The translations under genes and the position numbers were made by a program. Under the pieces are notes generated by a model that saw only the letters and a program-made list of their open reading frames with translations, searched no databases and was not told where the DNA came from. DNA of 26,174 nucleotides from a virus. Location: the IMG/VR virus record IMGVR_UViG_3300017971_000704, positions 1-26,174 of that record; one strand, given 5' to 3'. Below are positions 9,320 through 25,999 of the stretch, one piece after another (the stretch's first letter is position 1; every line of letters begins with the position of its first letter).

Positions 9320-9832
9320 ATGAAACCCACCACAAATTGCTTTCCTACACCTGACCGAATCTACCGCAGATATAACAAGATGATCATGAAGATAGCTCAT
9401 ACTATGAGCAAAAAATTCAACAAACCATTTGATGAATTGTATGCAGAAGCAATGTATCACGTGCTGACAAGAATCCAAGAATGGAATCCAAAAAGAGGAG
9501 GCCTCTGTACTCATGTCTACAACTGTGCTTACTTTCATACCTGGAATTATTGTAAACCGGAAAGAGAAATTCCTCATGAATCAGATAACCCAACATTTGT
9601 AGAGCAAGAGACAAAACCCAACTGGTTCAAAAATTTTCTCAATGAGTTGTCAGAAGAAACCCAACAGCTAGTGAAAATCATCTTTGAAGCTCCTGAAGAA
9701 TTATATGAGACCGTCAAACCCAACTGCCCAAAACTCTCCAAGAAAGCCATACGAAATTATATGATTGATGCAATGGATTGGGATGAAATCAGAATTGAAA
9801 AATCCTTTGCAGAGATCAGGCAATGTCTCTAA
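9320..9832 (+). CDS. Sigma-70-family-like protein
   Basis: A 170-residue protein. The start is taken at the ATG at 9320 because GGAGG precedes it by six bases; an in-frame ATG at 9308 is less well placed. Residues about 12-80 follow sigma region 2: YRRYNKMIMKIAHTMSKKF, then DELYAEAMYHVLTRIQEWNP, KRGGLCTHVYNCAYFHTWNY. The C-terminal segment (ELSEETQQLVKIIF...IRNYMIDAMDWDEIRIEKSF) may be a degenerate region 4. It could redirect host RNA polymerase to phage promoters or act as a sigma-like regulator. It overlaps the helicase start by 10 bases. The region 2 match is by eye. Confidence 0.6.
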   Translation: MKPTTNCFPTPDRIYRRYNKMIMKIAHTMSKKFNKPFDELYAEAMYHVLTRIQEWNPKRGGLCTHVYNCAYFHTWNYCKPEREIPHESDNPTFVEQETKPNWFKNFLNELSEETQQLVKIIFEAPEELYETVKPNCPKLSKKAIRNYMIDAMDWDEIRIEKSFAEIRQCL

Positions 9833-12189
9833 AAAAGAGACTCAAAAAAGTCCTGAAAACAAAACCATATCCTTTTCAGCGTAGAGGGATGCTGTTCTTC
9901 AAACAAACAAAAGGACGGGCTCTCCTGGGGGATGATATGGGTCTTGGGAAAACAATTCAAGCGCTAGGTTGGTTAGCTGTTAATCCAAGCAAACGCCCTG
10001 TTATTATTGTTTGTCCAGCCAGCTCCAAATATAATTGGGCTGATCAGATTGAACAGCACACTCATATGAGATATCAAATATTAAACAGCAGAAATCCTGA
10101 ACCTGTTACTGAGCCCATTGTCATCATCAACTATGATATTTTGGCTTATTGGAAAGAAAAACTTCTAGGCATTCAACCCAAAGTATTGATCACAGATGAG
10201 TGTTTTCCTACAGGCACTCCTATAAAAACCCCTTCAGGTTATATTCCTATTGAAAAAATAAAACTAGGAGATTCTGTCCTAAATGCTTTTGGTATAGGAA
10301 TTGTAAAAAAGACAAACAAAAGAATTTCTAACTTAATAGAACTTCATTTAAGTAATGGAACAAAAATACAAACAACCCCTAATCATCCTTTCTTTACATC
10401 TGAAGGATGGATAAAAGCAAAAAATCTTTATCAAAAAATTCTTTTGACTTCTACAGATGTTCTTAATATAATGAATGAAGACACTATATTAAGAGAGAAA
10501 AAGAAAAATGATCAAATGCCAATGGTGCCAAAAGAAATTCAATCCAAAAAGAAAAACACAAAGATTTTGCGGTTGCTCTTGCTCAGCGAAATGGAGAATG
10601 AGTCAACCACATATCAAAAGAAAGATTTACAAAAATCAAACCCACGAAGTCCGTTCTGCTGGTGCAATAAAGATGCACAAAGACAATCCACATATCGCCA
10701 AAGCTTCTTCAAAAAGAATGAAAGAAAACAATCCATCTTCCAAACCAGAAGTGAAAAAAAAGATCAAAGCACATTGGAAAAAATATGGTCATCCTTTATC
10801 AAAAATACAAGCAAAAGGAGGCAATGGAAAAGAATTTTCACAGCCACAAAGAATTTTATGGGCGGCATTAGGCTCTCCATGGAAAATAGAGCATGCAATC
10901 CGAACAAAACAAAAAAGAAAATCTGGCTATCCTACATGTTACAAAGTAGATATAGCTCTTTTAGAAAAAAAGATTTGGATAGAAGTAGACGGTTGGTCAC
11001 ACAAACAGCCACATATAATTGCAAAAGACAAAAAGAAAAAAAATCTATTGATGAAATTAGGGTGGAAAGGATTGAGATTTACAAACCAAGAAATAATGGA
11101 AAACCTTCCCAACACACTGTTTACAATTTACAAGTTTCTGGACATCCATCATACTATGTAAATGATTTTTTAGTTCATAATTGTCATTATGTAAAAAACT
11201 TGAGAGCAAAACGGACAAGAGTCTGCAAAGAACTTGCCAAGAAAAGCAGACACATAATCGCTATGAGTGGCACTCCTATCATCAATAGGCCTGTTGAATT
11301 TTTTCCTATACTCAACATGATATGTCCAAAAGAATTCTCTAGCTTCTGGAAATTTGCTTTCAGATATTGTGATCCAAAAAGAGGATGGGCTGGCAAAGGA
11401 TGGGATTTTAGTGGAGCCAGTCATCTGGATGAATTGAGAGAACGAATCGAGCCTCTATTCCTTCGCAGGATGAAAAAAGAAGTATTAAAACAGCTGCCAG
11501 AAAAACAAAGGACAATAATGTCTGTAGACATAGACAATCAAGCTGAATATCACAAGGCTACAGTCTCTTTCCTTCAATGGTACAAAAACAAAGCAGGAAC
11601 CGTGGCGGCGAAGAGAGCAAAGAAAGCTCAAGCGCTGGTCAAGCTAGGCCAGCTAAAACAATTAACAGCCAAAGGCAAACTGTCTCAAGCATGTGAATGG
11701 ATTGACAATTTTCTTTTCTCCACTGATGAAAAACTAGTGATCTTTGTTTATCATCAAGAAATATTCCAAACATTGATTACACAGTATAAAAGGATAGCTG
11801 CAATTGGAGGGAAATCAGGAAAGAAAAGACAAAACGAAGTGAACAAATTTCAATCTAATGACAAGTGTAGATTGTTCATAGGAACTATCAGAGCAGACAA
11901 GGAATCAATCACTTTAACTGCTGCCCGAAGCGTGCTCTTCATTGAATTAGGATGGACTCCAAGCGAACACAATCAAGCAGAGGATAGAGTGAATCGAATC
12001 GGTCAAAAGTATAATAAAGTAAATGTCTATTATATCCTAGGACGAAATACTGTGGATCAATATGTGTGGGATGTTATTGAAAAAAAGAGAGAAGTGATTG
12101 ACCAAATCATTGATGGTAAATCCCATAGGAAATCATTAGTGGATATTTCAAAAGTAATTCAGCTCATAGAAAAAGGAGAAAAGAATTGA
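9823..12189 (+). CDS. SNF2-family DNA helicase/translocase interrupted by an intein
   Basis: A 788-residue precursor. Extein motifs: Walker A GDDMGLGKT (residues 36-44), Ia IIVCPAS, motif II split as ITDE/CHYVKN, motif III AMSGTPIIN, and C-terminal motifs LFIELGWTPSEHNQAEDRVNRIGQK with YYILGRNTVDQYV. Residues 127-453 are an intein; removal leaves about 461 residues, a normal size for phage SNF2-like helicases. The enzyme is an ATP-driven DNA translocase, probably used in replication or recombination. The intein splits motif II, so the ATPase should be inactive until splicing. Upstream it overlaps the sigma-like gene; downstream it overlaps a small RHH gene. Confidence 0.92.
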   Translation: MSLKKRLKKVLKTKPYPFQRRGMLFFKQTKGRALLGDDMGLGKTIQALGWLAVNPSKRPVIIVCPASSKYNWADQIEQHTHMRYQILNSRNPEPVTEPIVIINYDILAYWKEKLLGIQPKVLITDECFPTGTPIKTPSGYIPIEKIKLGDSVLNAFGIGIVKKTNKRISNLIELHLSNGTKIQTTPNHPFFTSEGWIKAKNLYQKILLTSTDVLNIMNEDTILREKKKNDQMPMVPKEIQSKKKNTKILRLLLLSEMENESTTYQKKDLQKSNPRSPFCWCNKDAQRQSTYRQSFFKKNERKQSIFQTRSEKKDQSTLEKIWSSFIKNTSKRRQWKRIFTATKNFMGGIRLSMENRACNPNKTKKKIWLSYMLQSRYSSFRKKDLDRSRRLVTQTATYNCKRQKEKKSIDEIRVERIEIYKPRNNGKPSQHTVYNLQVSGHPSYYVNDFLVHNCHYVKNLRAKRTRVCKELAKKSRHIIAMSGTPIINRPVEFFPILNMICPKEFSSFWKFAFRYCDPKRGWAGKGWDFSGASHLDELRERIEPLFLRRMKKEVLKQLPEKQRTIMSVDIDNQAEYHKATVSFLQWYKNKAGTVAAKRAKKAQALVKLGQLKQLTAKGKLSQACEWIDNFLFSTDEKLVIFVYHQEIFQTLITQYKRIAAIGGKSGKKRQNEVNKFQSNDKCRLFIGTIRADKESITLTAARSVLFIELGWTPSEHNQAEDRVNRIGQKYNKVNVYYILGRNTVDQYVWDVIEKKREVIDQIIDGKSHRKSLVDISKVIQLIEKGEKN
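10201..11181 (+). mobile_element. Intein in the DEAH-type box of the SNF2 helicase
   Basis: A 327-residue intein. It begins with Cys (CFPTGTPIKTPSGYIPIEKI, block A) and has a block B TPNHPFF segment. It ends with block F VYNLQVSGHPSYYV and block G NDFLVHN before Cys+1. The junctions are DE/C...HN/C, giving a spliced DECH box. G+C is about 30% at the N-end, lower than the flanks. The middle (about 10500-11040) has no recognisable domain in the intein frame, being a Lys/Ser/Gln-rich filler, because the same DNA encodes an endonuclease in another frame (10508-11161). Confidence 0.92.
10508..11161 (+). CDS. Vsr/DUF559-like homing endonuclease, out of frame inside the intein
   Basis: A 217-residue ORF lying wholly inside the intein in the next reading frame. 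Domains in order: an N-terminal zinc finger (CQWCQKKF...FCGCSCSAKW), NUMOD3-like DNA-binding repeats (IKMHKDNPHIAKASSKRMKE, NNPSSKPEVKKKIKAHW), and a PD-(D/E)XK domain of the Vsr/DUF559 type: FSQPQRILWAAL, YKVDIALLEKKIWIEVDGWSH, then LMKLGWKGLRFTNQEIMENL. These are the expected catalytic Asp and Glu/Asp/His positions. It starts at ATG 10508 behind a weak GAGAGA site. It would cut intein-less alleles and promote homing of the intein (family knowledge plus inference). The last 120 bases also encode the intein splicing blocks F and G. Confidence 0.85.
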   Translation: MIKCQWCQKKFNPKRKTQRFCGCSCSAKWRMSQPHIKRKIYKNQTHEVRSAGAIKMHKDNPHIAKASSKRMKENNPSSKPEVKKKIKAHWKKYGHPLSKIQAKGGNGKEFSQPQRILWAALGSPWKIEHAIRTKQKRKSGYPTCYKVDIALLEKKIWIEVDGWSHKQPHIIAKDKKKKNLLMKLGWKGLRFTNQEIMENLPNTLFTIYKFLDIHHTM

Positions 12190-17383: not shown

Positions 17384-18052
17384 ATGAAGTCGGTAGTATC
17401 ATTATCAGGTGGGATGGATTCGGCAACAGCTCTTGACTGGGCTATCAATAATAGTGAAGAAGTTATTGCTGTTGGTTTCATCTATGGAAGCAAGCACAAT
17501 CCGTATGAACAGAAATGTGCTGAGCAACTGGCTTATCACTTTGAAGTGGAATTCATACGGATAGACCTGTCAGCAATTGGTAATCATCTCAGATCCAATC
17601 TGCTTAGGAATGGTGGAAATATTCCTGAAGGTCATTATGAATCTGAATCCATGAGACAGACTGTTGTTCCAGGCAGGAATATGATTTTCATTTCAATTCT
17701 TGCAGGGATTGCAGAAAGCCGTGATTTTGATACAGTGGTTCTAGGAATACATGCTGGGGATCATTTTATCTATCCAGATTGTAGACCCAAGTTTTTTCAT
17801 GCGATGGATTGGGCTGTGGAGAAAGGGACTGATGGGAAAGTGTCCCTTCAGGCTCCCTTTCTCCACGGAAACAAAACAACCATACTTCAATATGGTTATG
17901 AATCTTCAAAAGAACCTTTCCCATATCAACTCACTCGTACCTGTTACAAGGATCAGGAGTTGGCGTGTGGAAAATGTGGAGCTTGTCAGGAACGTTTGGA
18001 GGCCTTCAGAAATATTGGTCAGATTGATCCTGTTCAATATGAGGAAGAGTAG
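17384..18052 (+). CDS. queC: 7-cyano-7-deazaguanine (preQ0) synthase
   Basis: A 222-residue enzyme that converts 7-carboxy-7-deazaguanine (CDG) to preQ0 using ATP and ammonia. The PP-loop SLSGGMDSATAL is at residues 6-17, and the C-terminal zinc site has Cys187, Cys195, Cys198 and Cys201 (TCYKD, ACGKCGACQ). Length is that of normal QueC, and there is no fused amidotransferase domain. It is the first gene of a tight queC-queD-queE-folE-dpdA operon. The final DNA base is thus more likely preQ0 than archaeosine-type G+, unless another gene outside the window acts on it. Confidence 0.95.
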   Translation: MKSVVSLSGGMDSATALDWAINNSEEVIAVGFIYGSKHNPYEQKCAEQLAYHFEVEFIRIDLSAIGNHLRSNLLRNGGNIPEGHYESESMRQTVVPGRNMIFISILAGIAESRDFDTVVLGIHAGDHFIYPDCRPKFFHAMDWAVEKGTDGKVSLQAPFLHGNKTTILQYGYESSKEPFPYQLTRTCYKDQELACGKCGACQERLEAFRNIGQIDPVQYEEE

Positions 18053-18418
18053 ATGTATACGATCTCAAAAAGGATTGAGATTGCCGGAAGCCATAGACTG
18101 AATCTGGATTATGATTCTCCCTGTTCAGAACTTCATGGCCATAATTGGAATGTGATTGTAGAGGTACAAGGAGAAAGACTGAATGAGAATGGAATGCTGA
18201 TTGATTTCAAACACATCAAGGAAATTGTCAATCAGTTGGACCATTCTCATATCAATGATCATATTTCCTTAAATCCTACGGCTGAGAACATGGCCTTCTG
18301 GATTGCCTTTGAAATTCAGAAGAGAATTAATGAAGAATGGGAAGGGGATGAAATTCCCTGTATTTCCAAAGTCTCAGTCCAAGAGAGCGAAGGAAATCTG
18401 GCATGCTATATCCCATAA
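18053..18418 (+). CDS. queD: 6-carboxy-5,6,7,8-tetrahydropterin (CPH4) synthase
   Basis: A 121-residue QueD/PTPS-family enzyme that turns dihydroneopterin triphosphate into CPH4. Zinc ligands His14, His28 and His30 (AGSHRL, LHGHNW), catalytic Cys24 (SPCSEL) and the DHSHIND segment are in place. The ATG directly follows the queC stop with GAGGAAGAG as ribosome site. Full length; overlaps queE by 16 bases. Confidence 0.95.
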   Translation: MYTISKRIEIAGSHRLNLDYDSPCSELHGHNWNVIVEVQGERLNENGMLIDFKHIKEIVNQLDHSHINDHISLNPTAENMAFWIAFEIQKRINEEWEGDEIPCISKVSVQESEGNLACYIP

Positions 18419-19023
18419 ACCAAATCTTTTACAGCTTGCAAGGTGAAGGATTTTATGCCGGACGCCCTGCAGTTTTTATTCGATTGTCTGGCTGCAATTT
18501 GAAATGTCCTTGGTGTGATACCAACCATACAAAACATGAAAAGATGTCAGAAGAGCAAATTGTTCAGATGGTAGGAGAACTTTTGCCTCAAAGATGGCCT
18601 CCATTTGTTCTGATTGTTATCACAGGAGGAGAACCAACTTTATACGATCTTAATCCTTTATTGACAGAACTCACATTGATGCTTTCACCTAATGAAATCG
18701 CCATAGAGACCAACGGATACAATCTGAAAAGTATCCCACGTCTTAGCAACATCTGGGTGACAGTCTCACCAAAAATAATGGTGGAAGATTGTACAGCATT
18801 CTTTGATGATAAAGAGTGGTCAGGTGATGAATTGAAGATTGTTCTTGAGCCAGATATTGACGTTGAACTAATAAGGAAATTGCCCTTACGTCTACATACC
18901 AGATTTAATCATTTCTACATCCAGCCTTGCAGTGAAGACTTCGAGTCTGCTGTTGAATTTGTAAAGGAGAATCCATTGTGGATGCTGTCAGTACAGATAC
19001 ACAAGCTGATAAATATTTCCTGA
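18403..19023 (+). CDS. queE: 7-carboxy-7-deazaguanine (CDG) synthase, radical SAM
   Basis: A 206-residue radical SAM enzyme that makes CDG from CPH4. The cluster motif is C31-x3-C35-x2-C38 (GCNLKCPWCD), preceded by FYSLQGEGFYAGRPAVFIR and followed by ITGGEPTLYDL (SAM-binding GGE motif). Slightly shorter than many QueE. The start overlaps queD, and its end overlaps the next gene by 46 bases. Confidence 0.95.
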   Translation: MLYPINQIFYSLQGEGFYAGRPAVFIRLSGCNLKCPWCDTNHTKHEKMSEEQIVQMVGELLPQRWPPFVLIVITGGEPTLYDLNPLLTELTLMLSPNEIAIETNGYNLKSIPRLSNIWVTVSPKIMVEDCTAFFDDKEWSGDELKIVLEPDIDVELIRKLPLRLHTRFNHFYIQPCSEDFESAVEFVKENPLWMLSVQIHKLINIS

Positions 19024-20762
19024 GTTGGGATGATGTTTCTCTCAGAGCCGTCAATCTGGCCACTCAGATTAGAGAGGAATTGAATCTACCACCAGAATGC
19101 TACAAAGTGATAAGTATCTATGGTGTTCCTCGTGGTGGAATATTTCCAGCCTTACTGCTGCAGAAACATCTTCATGCAAACAATATTCTTGCTGACAAAC
19201 CGGAGGAGGCCGATATCTTTGTGGATGATATCATTGATTCCGGAGCTACGAGAGACAGGTACAAAAGGGATTTCCCAGACATTCCTTTCATTGCTTTGTA
19301 TGACAAGACAAAGGGAGAAGTTCCAGGCTGGTTGGTTTTTCCATGGGAAGCTATGTGTGAAGAGACCGGCCCACAGGAAAATATTGTGCGTATGATTGAA
19401 TATATTGGAGAAGACATACACAGAGAGGGATTGATAGAGACTCCTAATCGCGTTATCAAATCGTGGGAAACCTTGTATGGTGGTTATCACGTTGATCCCA
19501 AATCTGTTCTCAAGATGTTTGAGGACGATTCAAGTGATGAGATTGTTTTGCTGAAAAACATGGAATTTTTTAGCACGTGTGAACACCACATGCTTCCATT
19601 CTTCGGCAAGGCTCATATAGCATACATCCCAAATGGAAGAGTTGTAGGAATCAGTAAACTAGCTAGAGTGCTTGAAGTTTTTGCGCGAAGGCTTCAGATT
19701 CAGGAGAGGCTTTGTCAACAGATTACATCATTGCTTGATGAGGAATTGAAACCATTAGGTTCTGCCTGTATCTTGGAAGCCCAACACTTTTGTCTTGCTA
19801 AAGGAACTAAAATACAATTGGCTTATCTTGATAGAAATATTTTTCCTGATGGTGTTCCGATAGAAACTCTTGTTGGAAAACAAAATCTTCCTATTTATAG
19901 TTATGATAAAAATACAGAAAAAATTGTAATTGGAAATGCATCTAAAATATGGAGATCAGGAAGAAAAAAAGTATATAAAGTAACATTTGAATGGTTTTCA
20001 AAAAATCAATATAAAAAGAAAAAAATGAATGGGTCTATTAAAGTAACGGAAGATCATCCTTTTATGTTGCGTCACAAACTTCATAATCGTTATAATAATA
20101 AACACAGAAAATATAAAAATGGAGATTATTTGACAATTAAAGATGGGCTTTCTGTAGGTGATAGTCTGATGCCTTTTTCGTGCTATGGAGAAGAATACAA
20201 AACTTTATCCTTAAATAATGGGGACTATGTACATGAACATAGATTTTTAGCAGAAAATAAAATTGGAAGGAAATTAAAAACTTCTGAGGCTGTTCATCAT
20301 AAAAATGGAAATACCTTAGATAATAGCTTAAATAATTTAATTATCTTAAAGAGAGGAGAACATTCAAAAAAACACTTTGAAGGGAAAAAAAATGAGAATA
20401 AAAGCCATCCTGCTCATAACAAAAAAATTAGAAATCCATTAACATGTTTAGGATGTGGAAAAACATTTTTTGTTAAGTATGCCTATTTAGAAAAAACACA
20501 AAAGTTTTGTTCTCAAAAATGCTATCTTAAAAATGAAGGTAACCATAAAATAATAAAAATTGAAGAACTTGGTATAGAAGAAGTATATGATATTGAAGTA
20601 AATAAATTCAATAATTTTGCGGCAGAAGGTATTATTGTTCATAATTGTATGACTTCCAGGGGAGTTCAGAAGCAAAATTCTATCATGACCACATCCAGCC
20701 TGACTGGGGTATTCAGAGAGAAAGATGCTTCACGGTCTGAATTGTTCCAAATGATTAAGTAG
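18978..20762 (+). CDS. folE: Gpt-like phosphoribosyltransferase fused to GTP cyclohydrolase I, with intein
   Basis: A 594-residue precursor. Residues 1-135 are a purine phosphoribosyltransferase: WDDVSLRAVNLA, YGVPRGGIFPALL, PRPP motif ADIFVDDIIDSGAT (79-92), and PGWLVFPWE. The order resembles E. coli Gpt (WD...RA, SRGG, VIDDLVDTGGT, WIEQPWD). From about 140 it is GTP cyclohydrolase I: HREGLIETPNRVIKSWETL, zinc ligands Cys201 and His204 (TCEHHMLPFFG), VVGISKLARVLEVFARRLQ, and EAQHF/CMTSRGVQKQ. Residues 272-556 are an intein placed directly before the third zinc ligand. The spliced enzyme has about 309 residues. FolE supplies dihydroneopterin triphosphate for QueD. The start overlaps queE by 46 bases, with AAAGGAGAA upstream. 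Confidence 0.92.
   Translation: MDAVSTDTQADKYFLSWDDVSLRAVNLATQIREELNLPPECYKVISIYGVPRGGIFPALLLQKHLHANNILADKPEEADIFVDDIIDSGATRDRYKRDFPDIPFIALYDKTKGEVPGWLVFPWEAMCEETGPQENIVRMIEYIGEDIHREGLIETPNRVIKSWETLYGGYHVDPKSVLKMFEDDSSDEIVLLKNMEFFSTCEHHMLPFFGKAHIAYIPNGRVVGISKLARVLEVFARRLQIQERLCQQITSLLDEELKPLGSACILEAQHFCLAKGTKIQLAYLDRNIFPDGVPIETLVGKQNLPIYSYDKNTEKIVIGNASKIWRSGRKKVYKVTFEWFSKNQYKKKKMNGSIKVTEDHPFMLRHKLHNRYNNKHRKYKNGDYLTIKDGLSVGDSLMPFSCYGEEYKTLSLNNGDYVHEHRFLAENKIGRKLKTSEAVHHKNGNTLDNSLNNLIILKRGEHSKKHFEGKKNENKSHPAHNKKIRNPLTCLGCGKTFFVKYAYLEKTQKFCSQKCYLKNEGNHKIIKIEELGIEEVYDIEVNKFNNFAAEGIIVHNCMTSRGVQKQNSIMTTSSLTGVFREKDASRSELFQMIK
19791..20645 (+). mobile_element. Intein with HNH homing endonuclease in FolE
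   Basis: A 285-residue intein starting CLAKGTKIQLAYL and ending YDIEVNKFNNFAAEGIIVHN before Cys+1 (HF/C...HN/C). A block B TEDHPF segment is present. In the middle is an in-frame HNH domain with EAVHHKNGNTLDNSLNNLI and EHSKKH (His440-His441), then a zinc finger (CLGCGKTFF...KFCSQKCY). G+C is near 25% against about 43% in the flanking FolE coding DNA, consistent with recent arrival. It splits the enzyme immediately before the catalytic zinc Cys, so unspliced FolE should be inactive. Confidence 0.93.
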
Positions 20763-20769
20763 GAATATC

Positions 20770-21729
20770 ATGAGCATCAAGCTGTTTCTTGATAGTGGAG
20801 CCTTTGGTATCTATAAGAGATTATCAAAGGGAAGCATGGATGGATCGGCTATGTCTACTCTCAAGAGTCGTTCACGGGATGATTATTCTTACGTTTGCTC
20901 AGACGAATACAAAACATATCGAAGGGAATACGTTCGCTTTCTGAAAAAGCATGCCAAGCATTTTGATGTTTATGCAAATCTTGACGTGATTGGGAATGCT
21001 GAGCTTACCTACAAGAATCAGAAATGGTTTGAGAAACGGGGATTCAAACCATGTCCGGTCTGGCATATTGATTCTGATGTGAAATGGCTTCAGAGATATA
21101 TTGATGAAGGATATGACTACATTTGTATTGGAGCGATGGTTGGAGTTTCTTCTGTAATTTTACGACAGCTTTTAGATATGGTATGGTCAGAGATTCTTAC
21201 TGATAACAAAGGAATACCAAAGATAAAAGTACATGGATTTGGAATGACCAGCTTCAGTCTCATGAAAAGATATCCTTGGTATTCTGTGGACTCCACCTCT
21301 TGGGTGATAAGTCCAGGGTTCGGTTCCATTCTCTACCCGAAGAAAGGAAAGACAGAGGGATACGATTGGGGTTCTATTGAGAGCATTACCGTCTCAAACG
21401 TTGGGTTTAAGAAAGACCCTGGTTCCAATACCCACTTCAGGAACAAGCCTTCCTACTTAAGAAGGTATATTCTTGAATACTTGGAGAGCGCCGGCATTCC
21501 CTTTGGGGAAAGTTCATACAAAAAGGTCAATCCAAACTATGTCTTGAAGAAGGACGGTGAGAACTGGCTTGTTAAAGGAGAAGAGATTGAAGTAGTCGAA
21601 TCTCCAGGTGTATCAAACACTAGAATGAGAAGAGTTGATGCTTGCCTGTATGCCTTCACTGAGTTTGAGGCCCATCTGCCGAGGTGGCCATGGGCTCTAA
21701 AACTCAAGAAGAGAAAGACGTTACTATGA
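20770..21729 (+). CDS. dpdA: DpdA, TGT-like DNA 7-deazaguanine transglycosylase
   Basis: A 319-residue TIM-barrel protein. Visible segments are LFLDSGAFGIYKR (Asp8), DVYANLDVIGNAELTYKNQK, CPVWHIDSDVKWLQRYID, KVHGFGMTSFSLM and YPWYSVDSTSWV, the conserved order of phage DpdA proteins. It lacks the C-terminal zinc Cys cluster of tRNA TGTs. DpdA replaces guanine in phage DNA with preQ0 or a derivative, releasing free guanine (family knowledge). It follows the PRT-FolE gene by a few bases and overlaps the first mini-gene (ATGA). The location and the complete preQ0 pathway make the call strong. Confidence 0.92.
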   Translation: MSIKLFLDSGAFGIYKRLSKGSMDGSAMSTLKSRSRDDYSYVCSDEYKTYRREYVRFLKKHAKHFDVYANLDVIGNAELTYKNQKWFEKRGFKPCPVWHIDSDVKWLQRYIDEGYDYICIGAMVGVSSVILRQLLDMVWSEILTDNKGIPKIKVHGFGMTSFSLMKRYPWYSVDSTSWVISPGFGSILYPKKGKTEGYDWGSIESITVSNVGFKKDPGSNTHFRNKPSYLRRYILEYLESAGIPFGESSYKKVNPNYVLKKDGENWLVKGEEIEVVESPGVSNTRMRRVDACLYAFTEFEAHLPRWPWALKLKKRKTLL

Positions 21730-22208: not shown

Positions 22209-23219
22209 ATGGCTGTCAAGAAAAGAGCGGAAGTCATCACAGTCCTAAATGGCCTGAAGTGTATCCTGACGCCAAATGAAGTACTGGAACAATCCAACGC
22301 CTTTGTTTTCAAAGACAAGAAAATCTTCACTTTCAATGGGGAGATATTTGCTTCAGCTGACTATGATATAGGTATCAAACAACCATTCTCAATTGTAGGA
22401 GCAGATTTCCTGAAGCTACTTGAAAAATTCCCGGATGATCAGATAGGTATTGACCTGGATGGAAATGAGCTGGTCCTGACAGGGAAAAGAAAGAAAGCCG
22501 GTATCACTATCTTCAAGGAAATTCTGCTTCCGTATACTGAAGTCCCTGAACCTGGAAAGCTGTTCAAAGTATCGGAAAATTTCTTCCACTATCTTTTCCA
22601 ATGCGCTCAGATATGCGGGAGAGATCACACCAATCCCAAAACCACCCATGTCCATGTACGAAAGAATTTTATTGAAGCTACGGACCGATACAGAGTCTTT
22701 CGTGTTGACGTGACTACAAAATTTATCAAACGGGAAATAATGATCCCATCTGATTCCATTCTTCTGCTTGGAAACAAGACAATAAAGAAAGCTGGAATAA
22801 AAGATAACTGGCTTCATTTATTATCAGAAAATGGGATAAGATATTCACTCCGTTGTTCGGAGATAGAATATTTTGATGATGAAATGCTGCATTCAATACT
22901 CAATATTGATGGTGTTTCAGGTTCTTTCCCCAAGACAATTTCTGATACGATAGAACGAGCCCAGGTAGTTCAGGATCAGTTAGGGGAAGCTCATATCACA
23001 CTGAAAGAAAATGCTCTGAAGATCAGAACAGAAAAGGATGGAGTTTGGTATGAAGAAAAGAGAAGCATCAAGTATTCCGGCAAGAGCATATCATTCACAG
23101 TCAGTCTGAATTTTCTCAAAGAGATTTTATCCAAAACGAAAAAGGTTATCTTTGGAGAATCAAGCATTAAGATTGAAAAGGACAATTTTCATTTTGTCAT
23201 TTGTGTAGAGAAAAAATAA
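22209..23219 (+). CDS. DnaN-like sliding clamp
   Basis: A 336-residue protein with the layout of a bacterial beta clamp: three similar domains. Recognisable segments are HVHVRKNFIEATDRYRVFRV (compare the ATDGHRL segment of DnaN), IMIPSDSILLLG, and the C-terminal VSLNFLKEILSKTKKVIFGE with ...FHFVICVEKK. AAGGAG precedes the ATG. It would tether the phage polymerase encoded downstream. It is a little shorter than DnaN (about 366). Its stop overlaps the next start (TAATG). Confidence 0.78.
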   Translation: MAVKKRAEVITVLNGLKCILTPNEVLEQSNAFVFKDKKIFTFNGEIFASADYDIGIKQPFSIVGADFLKLLEKFPDDQIGIDLDGNELVLTGKRKKAGITIFKEILLPYTEVPEPGKLFKVSENFFHYLFQCAQICGRDHTNPKTTHVHVRKNFIEATDRYRVFRVDVTTKFIKREIMIPSDSILLLGNKTIKKAGIKDNWLHLLSENGIRYSLRCSEIEYFDDEMLHSILNIDGVSGSFPKTISDTIERAQVVQDQLGEAHITLKENALKIRTEKDGVWYEEKRSIKYSGKSISFTVSLNFLKEILSKTKKVIFGESSIKIEKDNFHFVICVEKK

Positions 23220-24424
23220 TGCGTGGATTCTTCAGCGGTTCGGAATTGAAATCAGAAAAGATAACACCAAAGATTTCCCGGTGTGGCAAATGTGGACTGT
23301 ATAAAAAATGCATTAGTCCCAAGATGCAGACAACAGGTCTGGGAAGACGTAAAACTCTCTTTGTCGCTGAAGCTCCAGGAGAACAGGAAGATAGACAGGG
23401 AGTTCAGCTCATAGGGGATGCTGGTCAGCTACTGAGAGATGTGTTGGATGATATTGATATTGATTTGGATGATTGTTGGAAAACGAATACTGTCATCTGC
23501 AGACCTCCCAACAATAAGATTGAAAAACACATGATTCAATGTTGTCGTCCCAACCTATTGAAAACCATCAAACGGTTGAGACCGGCTGTGATTATAGCAC
23601 TGGGAAAATCAGCTCTGGAGAGTCTGTTGTTTCAGGAATGGAAAAAAGATATTGGCCCATTGACAAAATGGATTGGATGGACTATTCCCAGCCCACAGTA
23701 CAAGGCTTGGCTCTGTCCTACCTATCATCCCTCCTATATCTTGAGAATGGGTGAGGATGAGCTATTGGTGAAGATATTCAGACAGCATCTGAAGAAAGCA
23801 ATCAGTCTTGAGAATAAGAAAGTAAAGAAATATTCACTTGAAAATCTGAAGAGTAAGGTGGAAGTGATCCTTGATCCAGATCACGCAAGAACAAGGATGG
23901 CAAACCTCAGCACCAAGGAAGGAGTACTGGCTTTTGATTATGAGACTAATGGCTTGAAACCTGACAAGAAAGGACATAAGATCATCTCTGTCTCTTTTTG
24001 TCTAAATGGAAAGGATACGTTTGCTTGTGGAATAGATGAAGATCACCGAACAAAGAGTGTTCTATCTGATATATTGAAAAGCAAACACCTGAAGAAGGTG
24101 GCAAGCAATATGAAGTTTGAGGAGAGGTGGACCAGAGCAATACTTGGTCATGGTGTAAAAAGCTGGTATTGGGATACGATGCTTGCTGCTCATTGTCTTG
24201 ACAATCGTTCGGGAATTTCTTCAATCAAATTCCAAGCCTATATTCATCTTGGATTATCGGATTACGATTCTCATATTGCTCCATACCTCTATGGCAAGAA
24301 TTCAAATGGATTCAACCGGATTGATCAGATTGATCCGAAAGAGCTGTTAATTTATAATGGTATAGATAGTTTGACAGAATACATGATTATGAAAAGACAA
24401 AGAAAGATATTCAATGGGAAATGA
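23219..24424 (+). CDS. Family 4 UDG-like domain fused to DEDDy 3'-5' exonuclease
   Basis: A 401-residue protein; ATG 23219 overlaps the clamp stop. Residues 20-200 resemble family 4 uracil-DNA glycosylase: C22-x2-C25, LFVAEAPGEQEDRQG, LIGDAGQLL, ICRPPNNK (Cys94), CCRPNLL (Cys108/109), and TYHPSYILRM, with four Cys placed to hold an iron-sulfur cluster. Residues 235-400 are a DEDDy exonuclease: AFDYETNG (D240, E242), SNMKFEERW, and YNGIDSLTEY (Y379, D383), as in the proofreading domain of DNA polymerase I. It is probably the proofreading half of the phage polymerase, whose polymerase half is at 24608-25999. Whether the UDG part is active cannot be told. Confidence 0.85.
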   Translation: MRGFFSGSELKSEKITPKISRCGKCGLYKKCISPKMQTTGLGRRKTLFVAEAPGEQEDRQGVQLIGDAGQLLRDVLDDIDIDLDDCWKTNTVICRPPNNKIEKHMIQCCRPNLLKTIKRLRPAVIIALGKSALESLLFQEWKKDIGPLTKWIGWTIPSPQYKAWLCPTYHPSYILRMGEDELLVKIFRQHLKKAISLENKKVKKYSLENLKSKVEVILDPDHARTRMANLSTKEGVLAFDYETNGLKPDKKGHKIISVSFCLNGKDTFACGIDEDHRTKSVLSDILKSKHLKKVASNMKFEERWTRAILGHGVKSWYWDTMLAAHCLDNRSGISSIKFQAYIHLGLSDYDSHIAPYLYGKNSNGFNRIDQIDPKELLIYNGIDSLTEYMIMKRQRKIFNGK

Positions 24425-24614
24425 CAAGAAAATGCCTTCAAGAAAAGAACTTGAAGAGACTTTGAGACAACTGCAAGGAAGCCAAGAGTTGGTTGAAGAT
24501 ATGATCAAACCTATGGCCAAATTGCTGCATGCTAAATATGAAGCACTCATAGACACTGGATTTACAAAAGAACAAGCATTCACAATCATACTTCATAAAG
24601 GTATGGAATGGTGA
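24414..24614 (+). CDS. Small helical protein between the exonuclease and polymerase genes
   Basis: A 66-residue protein overlapping both neighbours (11 and 7 bases). It reads KELEETLRQLQGSQELVEDM then KYEALIDTGFTKEQAFTIIL, an all-helical pattern with a GFTKEQA segment common in small phage proteins of unknown function. It sits exactly where a polymerase I would join its exonuclease and polymerase domains. It might bridge the two subunits; that is speculation. Confidence 0.65.
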   Translation: MGNDKKMPSRKELEETLRQLQGSQELVEDMIKPMAKLLHAKYEALIDTGFTKEQAFTIILHKGMEW

Positions 24615-25999
24615 TCCCATACAAGAGATCAGCTTACAAACTCCTACATGATGGGGCAATAGCCCTGGCTGAGATTGAAGGAAATGGTATCAAGATTGAT
24701 ACTGTATATTTGAAAAAGACCATACGAAAAACTGAAAAGAGAATTCAACGGTTGCAAACTGAATTGGAAAAAGGAAAGGTTGCCCGGACATGGAAGAAAG
24801 TGTTTGGAAACAAAACCAATTTCAATTCCAACGATCAACTGGGAAAGATATTGTTTGAGCATATGGAAATTCCCTGTCCTGAGAGAACGAAGACAGGGAA
24901 GTACAGAACAAACGAAAAAACCCTTATGACTGTAGACCATCCATTCGTAGAAAAATATCTTCAGATCAAAAAACTACAGAAGGCATTGACAACCTATTTA
25001 AGGGGAATTCAGAAGGAAGTAGTGGACGGTTTTTTGCATCCTTTTTTTAATCTTCACATCACTCGCACGTACCGTTCATCTTCTGATTCCCCTAATTTTC
25101 AAAACATACCTGTTCGTGATAAAGAGCTTGGCAATCTGATCAGAAAAGCATTTATTGCCAGAGAAGGTCATCAGCTGGTGGAAATTGATTATAGCGGCAT
25201 TGAGGTGGCAATAGCCGCGGCCTATCACAAAGATCCAAGGATGATAGACTACATCGGCAATCCCAAATTGGATTTGCACCGGGACATGGCTATAGAATGC
25301 TACAAACTCAAGTCCGGGCAGGTAACAAAGGATATCAGATTCTACGGAAAAAACTGTTTCGTATTCCCTCAATTCTACGGTTCTATGTACACAGACTGCG
25401 CCAGAGCACTGTGGGGCGCTATAGACACAGCAAAACTATGTACAAAGGATGAAATGCCCTTAAAACGCCATTTACAAAGCCAGGGGATACGGGAATTAGG
25501 TGATTGCAATCCCCAGGAAAGCCCACACAAAGGTTCATTTGAATATCATATCCAACAGGTTGAAAAGGCTTTCTGGGGAAAACGATTCAAAGTCTATGCT
25601 CAATGGAAAAAGAAATGGTATCAGAAATATGTGAGCAGAGGATGGATGCTGACTAAGACTGGATTTATTTGCCAGGGCTTTATGAAGCGCAATGAGGTTA
25701 TCAATTATCCGGTGCAGGGTTCAGCCTTTCATTGCCTGCTCTGGTCATTGACAAGGCTTGTGCGTGAATTGAAAAAACATAAGATGAAAACACTGATTGT
25801 GGGACAGATTCATGACAGTATTCTGGCTGATGTTCCAGCAAAGGAGCTGGATGATTTTTTGATGTTGGCCAATACTGTTATGACAACTCAACTAACTAAT
25901 GAATGGAAATGGATCAATGTTCCACTTGAAGTTGAAGCTGAAGTATGCCCTATTGGAGGAAGTTGGTCCGAGAAAGAGGAGAAGGAGATTCCAAAATGA
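24608..25999 (+). CDS. Family A DNA polymerase, polymerase domain only
   Basis: A 463-residue polymerase with the family A motifs: an N-terminal thumb segment (LAEIEGNGIKID), HITRTYRSSSDSPNFQNIPV, motif A VEIDYSGIEVAIAAAY (Asp194), motif B RFYGKNCFVFPQFYG (Lys248), and motif C GQIHDSIL (Asp403). No 5'-3' or 3'-5' exonuclease domain is present in the same chain; proofreading is supplied by the separate gene at 23219. Motif A has Gly and motif C has Ser where Gln and Glu are usual (SQIE, HDE). The start overlaps the small upstream gene. Confidence 0.92.
   Translation: MVIPYKRSAYKLLHDGAIALAEIEGNGIKIDTVYLKKTIRKTEKRIQRLQTELEKGKVARTWKKVFGNKTNFNSNDQLGKILFEHMEIPCPERTKTGKYRTNEKTLMTVDHPFVEKYLQIKKLQKALTTYLRGIQKEVVDGFLHPFFNLHITRTYRSSSDSPNFQNIPVRDKELGNLIRKAFIAREGHQLVEIDYSGIEVAIAAAYHKDPRMIDYIGNPKLDLHRDMAIECYKLKSGQVTKDIRFYGKNCFVFPQFYGSMYTDCARALWGAIDTAKLCTKDEMPLKRHLQSQGIRELGDCNPQESPHKGSFEYHIQQVEKAFWGKRFKVYAQWKKKWYQKYVSRGWMLTKTGFICQGFMKRNEVINYPVQGSAFHCLLWSLTRLVRELKKHKMKTLIVGQIHDSILADVPAKELDDFLMLANTVMTTQLTNEWKWINVPLEVEAEVCPIGGSWSEKEEKEIPK

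Follow-up and report, generated by a model that had tools for sequence, protein, structure and literature searches.

GTP cyclohydrolase I (FolE) uses guanosine triphosphate (GTP) at the start of 7-cyano-7-deazaguanine (preQ0) synthesis, and DpdA exchanges guanine in DNA for preQ0, with one guanine freed per base. In a viral contig 26,174 nt long (IMG/VR record IMGVR_UViG_3300017971_000704, hereafter the window), we analyzed a gene in which FolE is fused to an N-terminal phosphoribosyltransferase (PRT) domain resembling Gpt, the xanthine-guanine phosphoribosyltransferase (XGPRT) of E. coli. The window resembles Enterobacteria phage 9g and the Queuovirinae (PMC6884629) in its set of queE, queC, queD, folE, dpdA, clamp and polymerase genes. 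Its DpdA is of the 9g type, but the FolE of 9g is a protein of 204 amino acids (aa) without a PRT, whereas that of the window is PRT-fused. From the grouping in PMC6884629, the window phage would be expected to carry the deoxynucleoside of preQ0 (dPreQ0) or of 7-amido-7-deazaguanine (dADG) rather than deoxyarchaeosine (dG+), because its QueC has no amidotransferase domain and neither QueF nor ArcS was noticed in the 26-kb fragment.

A literature search yielded no report of a PRT-FolE fusion (the 2023 Nucleic Acids Research survey of phage 7-deazaguanines was not covered), and the literature searched on these 7-deazaguanine phages contained no mention of a PRT and nothing on the fate of the guanine released by DpdA. 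The preliminary description of this DNA, made from the sequence alone, had likewise known of no description of such a fusion; the absence of a published report agrees with this, even though many public genomes contain it. Both kinds of domain were known before, as was the pathway, and it is the conserved fused form without the flexible loop of Gpt that appears to be undescribed.

The N-terminal domain of the fusion is Gpt-like

The fusion gene starts with GTG at 18978, stops at 20762 and comprises 594 codons; a Shine-Dalgarno sequence, AAAGGAG (18963–18969), lies 8 nt upstream of the GTG. The gene and its PRT features are as follows.

18978–20762, plus strand: PRT-FolE fusion gene with intein; single open frame, 594-aa precursor, 309 aa when spliced
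19008–19352, plus strand: Gpt-like PRT domain, residues 11–125 (PHROG, NCBIfam, phmmer, predicted fold)
19128–19139, plus strand: pyrophosphate loop P-R-G-G, residues 51–54 (Gpt S36-R37-G38-G39)
19212–19250, plus strand: phosphoribosyl pyrophosphate (PRPP) motif DIFVDDIIDSGAT, residues 79–91 (Gpt D88, D89, D92)
19329–19349, plus strand: base-pocket motif WLVFPWE, residues 118–124 (Gpt W134–D140)

In domain searches, the N-terminal part matched the PHROG phosphoribosyl transferase family phrog_8995 (E=4e-11), the NCBIfam xanthine PRT (E=1e-10, under the curated cut-off) and, by phmmer against the PDB, E. coli XGPRT (E=4e-6). No PRT family was matched in the N-terminal domain by a Pfam scan, which may explain why annotators overlooked it. 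An AlphaFold model of the domain was built from an alignment of 60 rows, all from the window or from the retrieved loci (given below by L numbers), and reached a predicted local distance difference test score of 92.7 and a predicted template modeling score of 0.85. The fold search with this model was headed by the XGPRTs of E. coli and Yersinia (Z 12.6–11.7), which ranked above other purine PRTs and PyrR (Z 9.9); the E. coli enzyme was superposed at 3.4 Å over 112 residues with 27% identity (Z 12.6). By sequence and by fold, the nearest solved relatives are xanthine-guanine PRTs. A chance PRPP motif was ruled out by the agreement of fold, family matches and conservation.

The segments of the window PRT stand in the same order as in Gpt (PDB 1a95–1a98, 4jls), namely the PRGG loop, DIFVDDIIDSGAT, K110 and WLVFPWE, so that the Gpt-like character and the segment order given in the preliminary description were both borne out. 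Common to the two proteins are the fold, the PRGG loop, DDxxDSGxT and the PW(D/E) base-pocket motif, with K110 at the position of Gpt K115, the lysine to the purine O6, and W118 at that of Gpt W134, the stacking tryptophan.

Ligand residues are kept and the flexible loop is lost

A first survey was retrieved with the search patterns W.V.PWE and DD..D.G and is biased in favor of these motifs. Among its 70 fused PRTs (Gpt numbering), D88, D89, D92, G94, T96, W134 and P138 were each present in 70/70, G38 in 69/70 and R37 in 63/70, with lysine in 4 more (R/K 67/70); K115 was kept in 61/69. The mean top-residue frequency across the domain was 0.49 in this alignment. In a second set of 58 distinct PRTs, retrieved through DpdA or FolE alone and not through PRT motifs, D88, D89, G94 and T96 were found in 58/58, W134 in 57/58, D92 in 56/58 and K115 in 49/58. 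The PRPP-, pyrophosphate- and base-binding residues are thus nearly invariant, which argues from conservation that the domain is maintained as a PRT-type site for purine and PRPP ligands.

The flexible catalytic loop of Gpt (about residues 54–75, with a Ser-Tyr pair) is absent from the window PRT: the span from the pyrophosphate loop to the PRPP motif is about 20–28 residues shorter than in Gpt, with 22 residues in the window compared to 42. The fused family is therefore Gpt-like yet not filed as a Gpt member, because one defining feature of Gpt is missing. Without the loop, catalysis may be weak, absent or dependent on the FolE domain, and an active site so conserved in its residues and yet loop-less is a puzzle of enzymology. 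The full-length span (41–50 residues) is kept in separate PRTs of phages phi13:1 and StAshley and of loci L012, L082 and L162; the looped PRTs of phi13:1 and StAshley fit what would be expected of working salvage enzymes. The separate PRT gene of three loci (L053, L054, L061) is likewise loop-less; it overlaps the end of queC instead of adjoining folE, and its PRPP motif has the acidic change D88E.

Fused and separate PRTs in other genomes

The window domain by itself gave no match in viral contigs when used to search for close relatives, and an alignment-based profile was required to find viral relatives. The profile search retrieved 80 viral contigs: most had the PRT fused to FolE, and others had a separate PRT gene adjoining folE with queC, queD and queE near. 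In the survey of dpdA phages proposed with the preliminary description, 71 DpdA-anchored loci had FolE, comprising 31 with the fusion, 2 with a separate PRT and 38 without a PRT. A FolE-anchored survey, with the PRT-less FolE of 9g as the query, found the fusion in 30/80 viral loci.

Named phages were searched by tblastn, and the fusion was found in Pseudomonas phages NP1, PaMx25, JG054 and others, Vibrio phages VpKK5 and 1.117/1.207, and Stenotrophomonas, Variovorax, Xanthomonas and Sphingomonas (MMDA13) phages, where it carries only the label "GTP cyclohydrolase". These relatives and the viral surveys refuted the idea that the fusion is unique to the window phage. Of the DpdA loci surveyed, roughly 40% have a conserved purine-PRT-like domain on the enzyme that opens the pathway, concealed by that label. 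The fusions of NP1, PaMx25, JG054, VpKK5, Stenotrophomonas phage ply2008005c and MMDA13 have the same two-domain layout as the window, a loop-less PRT and dpdA just downstream, but, unlike the window, no intein. In NP1, a homing endonuclease gene (L009:5866–6309) is placed between PRT-folE and dpdA.

Pfam PF23859 misses the DpdA of these phages, and PHROG families were used instead; phrog_1279 had no match anywhere, a negative that is uninformative. A 9g-type DpdA was present on 21/21 fused contigs searched whole. The separate PRTs scanned belong to phrog_8995, as does that of the window, but their DpdA, where identified, was of another family, phrog_19058, which was present in 10 of the virus records searched that had a separate PRT. 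This weakened the proposal that phages with a separate PRT lack DpdA and rely on a nucleotide route. A 7-deazaguanine gene set with an unfused PRT next to folE is present in Flavobacterium phage immuto and in large metagenomic phages. Separate PRTs were also found in phi13:1, StAshley and the Campylobacter CP220-type phages, the last with FolE and QueD in other parts of their genomes; in both phi13:1 and CP220, the PRT gene is distant from folE, and in phiST-type phages it is not next to folE. The phi13:1 protein gp036 resembles the DpdA of immuto (E=1e-6), which weakened the same proposal further. StAshley gp090 has DpdA-like stretches by eye only, its BLASTP comparison with gp036 being not significant; the notion that StAshley is without que genes was rejected, as queC, queD and queE sit upstream. 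In Campylobacter phage F379, the unfused PRT is annotated as "purine phosphoribosyltransferase / queuosine biosynthesis protein", and Campylobacter phages carry dADG, as stated by reference in PMC6884629.

The PRT was always found in 7-deazaguanine gene sets, and its pocket is like a 6-oxopurine pocket; preQ0, 7-carboxy-7-deazaguanine (CDG) and 7-amido-7-deazaguanine (ADG) retain the Watson-Crick face of guanine. One of these bases, and not guanine, could accordingly be phosphoribosylated to the nucleotide of the modified base. The fusion phages, however, have DpdA, whose substrate is the free base; a nucleotide would divert this base. Moreover, PRTs bond purine N9, and the 7-substituents would need room. 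We regard a 7-deazaguanine substrate as improbable.

It is more improbable still that a former PRT is retained purely to support the structure or assembly of FolE. The lost loop and the many phage FolEs that function without a PRT would agree with such a role, as would the few FolEs (L148, L234, L248) with unrelated N-terminal extensions of about 125 residues, not PRT-like by profile. Against it, the ligand residues are invariant on a background of 0.49, and the family also has members encoded by genes of their own.

A tree test of the origin of the fusion (5 changes; p-value of the approximately unbiased test, p-AU, 0.19; few columns) neither supported nor rejected a single origin. Cellular fusions were sporadic, with 1/117 genomes in the class of a Peribacteria genome and 1/146 in a Planctomycetes order. 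The Peribacteria fusion (L097:6860–7831) is chromosomal and bacterial, flanked by SecDF and thymidylate synthase, and QueC was not found in this incomplete genome; a folate-linked use or a phage-derived transfer is possible. Such a setting is also what would be seen if the PRT served general purine or folate metabolism, the 7-deazaguanine context being secondary, but the rarity of cellular fusions in the sampled groups and the location of the viral ones in que/dpdA loci leave this explanation with only a slight probability.

Possible recycling of the guanine released by DpdA

We tentatively propose, at a little short of an even chance, that the fusion is a two-domain protein of the phage 7-deazaguanine DNA-modification pathway whose PRT recycles DpdA-released guanine to the nucleotide pool. 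The PRT domain would bind the released guanine and PRPP and form guanosine monophosphate (GMP), which cellular kinases would convert to GTP (or dGTP). Recycling would spare purines and clear the product guanine, a competitor of preQ0 at DpdA, and the fusion to FolE would provide co-expression and co-localization of both ends of the cycle. The preliminary description suggested that the fusion would couple base release to preQ0 synthesis; direct channeling is excluded, because two phosphorylations separate GMP from GTP.

In support of recycling, the PRT travels together with FolE, QueC, QueD, QueE and DpdA, and in phages with the other type of DpdA it has a gene of its own beside folE. In phage 9g, 26% of deoxyguanosine (dG) is replaced (PMC8265664). 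For a 9g-like genome at this level, a rough estimate gives about 6,400 guanines freed per genome and, with assumed inputs, near 1 mM guanine per 100 progeny in 1 fL, so that guanine release by DpdA in heavily modified phages is a flux on the millimolar scale. Recycling would, in our still hesitant judgment, account for the conserved purine pocket, the linkage to more than one type of DpdA, the separate-gene forms and the loop-bearing versions.

Several observations weigh against recycling. In Hpt enzymes, the Ser-Tyr pair of the loop has an important catalytic role, and the Gpt-type flexible loop was absent from 69/70 fused proteins of the first survey (span 14–27 residues) and from the fused proteins of the second set (17–31 residues vs. 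42 in Gpt). K115, the contact to the purine O6, is substituted in about 12–15%. The conversion of GMP to GTP requires two kinase steps. More than half of the DpdA/FolE loci, phage 9g included, have no PRT domain, which is therefore dispensable, and host salvage may suffice. Finally, the fusion beside thymidylate synthase in the Peribacteria genome means that the domain is not strictly tied to DNA modification. The guanine-recycling loop of the preliminary description thus fits the Gpt-like domain, its ligand residues and the linkage to FolE, Que proteins and DpdA, but not the missing loop.

The same combination of retained ligand residues and a lost catalytic loop suggests the strongest rival to recycling, one that we consider unlikely but well worth weighing: the PRT could be a sensor with PRPP and/or guanine or a guanine nucleotide as ligands, inefficient in transfer, that modulates FolE. 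Synthesis of preQ0 would then follow either the availability of purines or how fast guanine is released. PRT folds act as regulators in PyrR and B. subtilis PurR, and animal GTP cyclohydrolase I is regulated by GFRP. The covalent tie to FolE, the committed step, is in line with a sensor, and PyrR entries were in the fold list, at a lower Z (9.9 vs. 12.6 for XGPRT), although fold alone is not decisive. However, the purine pocket (W134, PWE, K115) is conserved as well as the PRPP site, the loop is retained in the separate PRTs of phi13:1 and StAshley, and the PRT gene is far from folE in phi13:1 and CP220. A sensor would represent a means of controlling GTP cyclohydrolase I in phages.

A form of recycling that takes the missing loop into account is possible, though we hold it with more doubt than recycling in general: a dedicated loop-less Gpt family, mostly FolE-fused, would close the guanine cycle, with the FolE decamer or an altered mechanism replacing the loop. 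Phages would then encode a salvage step of their own that is linked to DNA modification, for which no description was found. The intein-free homologues in cultured Pseudomonas and Vibrio phages make the fate of the guanine directly testable.

The gene cassette and the FolE intein

The neighboring genes of the pathway are the following.

17384–18052, plus strand: QueC without an amidotransferase domain (PF06508, 4e-56)
18053–18418, plus strand: QueD (PF01242, 1.2e-29)
18403–19023, plus strand: QueE (phrog_2076, 1.9e-35)
20770–21729, plus strand: DpdA, DNA guanine transglycosylase (phrog_887, E=4e-47; DpdA profile built here, 2e-90)

The last 46 nt of queE are shared with the start of the fusion gene, and dpdA, which the preliminary description had placed next to the fusion, starts 7 nt after it. 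The contiguous cassette reads queC-queD-queE-[PRT-folE]-dpdA, followed by a clamp-like gene and DNA polymerase pieces. With both preQ0 synthesis genes and DpdA in the window, this is a 7-deazaguanine cassette of the DpdA type.

The FolE part of the fusion scored 215 bits with PF01227 (E=5.5e-64; cut-off 27) and 208 bits with TIGR00063 (curated cut-off 181.6). It is divided as follows.

19377–19790, plus strand: FolE N-extein with the CEHH zinc/catalytic motif, residues 134–271
19791–20645, plus strand: intein of 285 aa, residues 272–556 (PF14890, HNH_3; TIGR01443/TIGR01445; borders; GC)
20646–20759, plus strand: FolE C-extein, beginning at the third zinc-ligand Cys

The intein matched PF14890 (E=3.6e-15, 56.5 bits vs. 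a cut-off of 35.8) and an HNH_3 endonuclease, and it has Cys1 (CLAKG...), the block-B TxxH as TEDH, a C-terminal IIVHN and Cys+1 (IIVHN/C). Its guanine-cytosine (GC) content is 26.8% compared to 42.3% in the upstream coding sequence. The zinc and catalytic residues of FolE are present (CEHH at 201–204, H270, Cys557), and the insertion point lies between ...EAQHF and CMTSRG..., immediately before the zinc-ligand Cys, so that Cys557 adjoins H-F only in the spliced product. The zinc ligands of E. coli FolE are C110, H113 and C181, the third ligand here corresponding to Cys181. Since the intein lies directly before this ligand, FolE should be complete, and active, only after the predicted splicing. 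The complete GTP cyclohydrolase I of the preliminary description is therefore correct for the predicted spliced product and not for the open reading frame, which the intein interrupts.

Among related phages, at least four 7-deazaguanine pathway enzymes have acquired intein-like insertions, mostly right before an active-site or metal-binding cysteine. In FolE, those of L018 and L166 are at the Cys110 site and that of the window is at the Cys181 site; QueE is interrupted at the third Fe-S Cys (L026/L139 and L214), QueC in L180, and DpdA before VDSTSW in L031. Only the FolE insertions of the window and L018 matched intein profiles.

Elsewhere in the window, DNA polymerase A is split over two genes downstream, with a uracil-DNA-glycosylase-like domain and an exonuclease in one gene and the polymerase domain in the other (23201–24424 and 24608–25999). 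The SNF2 helicase gene (9823–12189) is split in its DECH motif by an intein at 10201–11181, and an open reading frame at 10508–11161 encodes a 217-aa DUF559/Vsr-like endonuclease in the +1 frame relative to that of the helicase intein. When the endonuclease was reshuffled synonymously 20,000 times, the helicase frame never stayed open (mean 17.4 stops), and both overlapping frames therefore appear selected. An HNH endonuclease out of frame within a non-intein methylase insertion provides a precedent (PMC11855218). Relatives were found within helicase genes of Corynebacterium phage phi673 and Vibrio phage 159E43, in a frame with the same offset.

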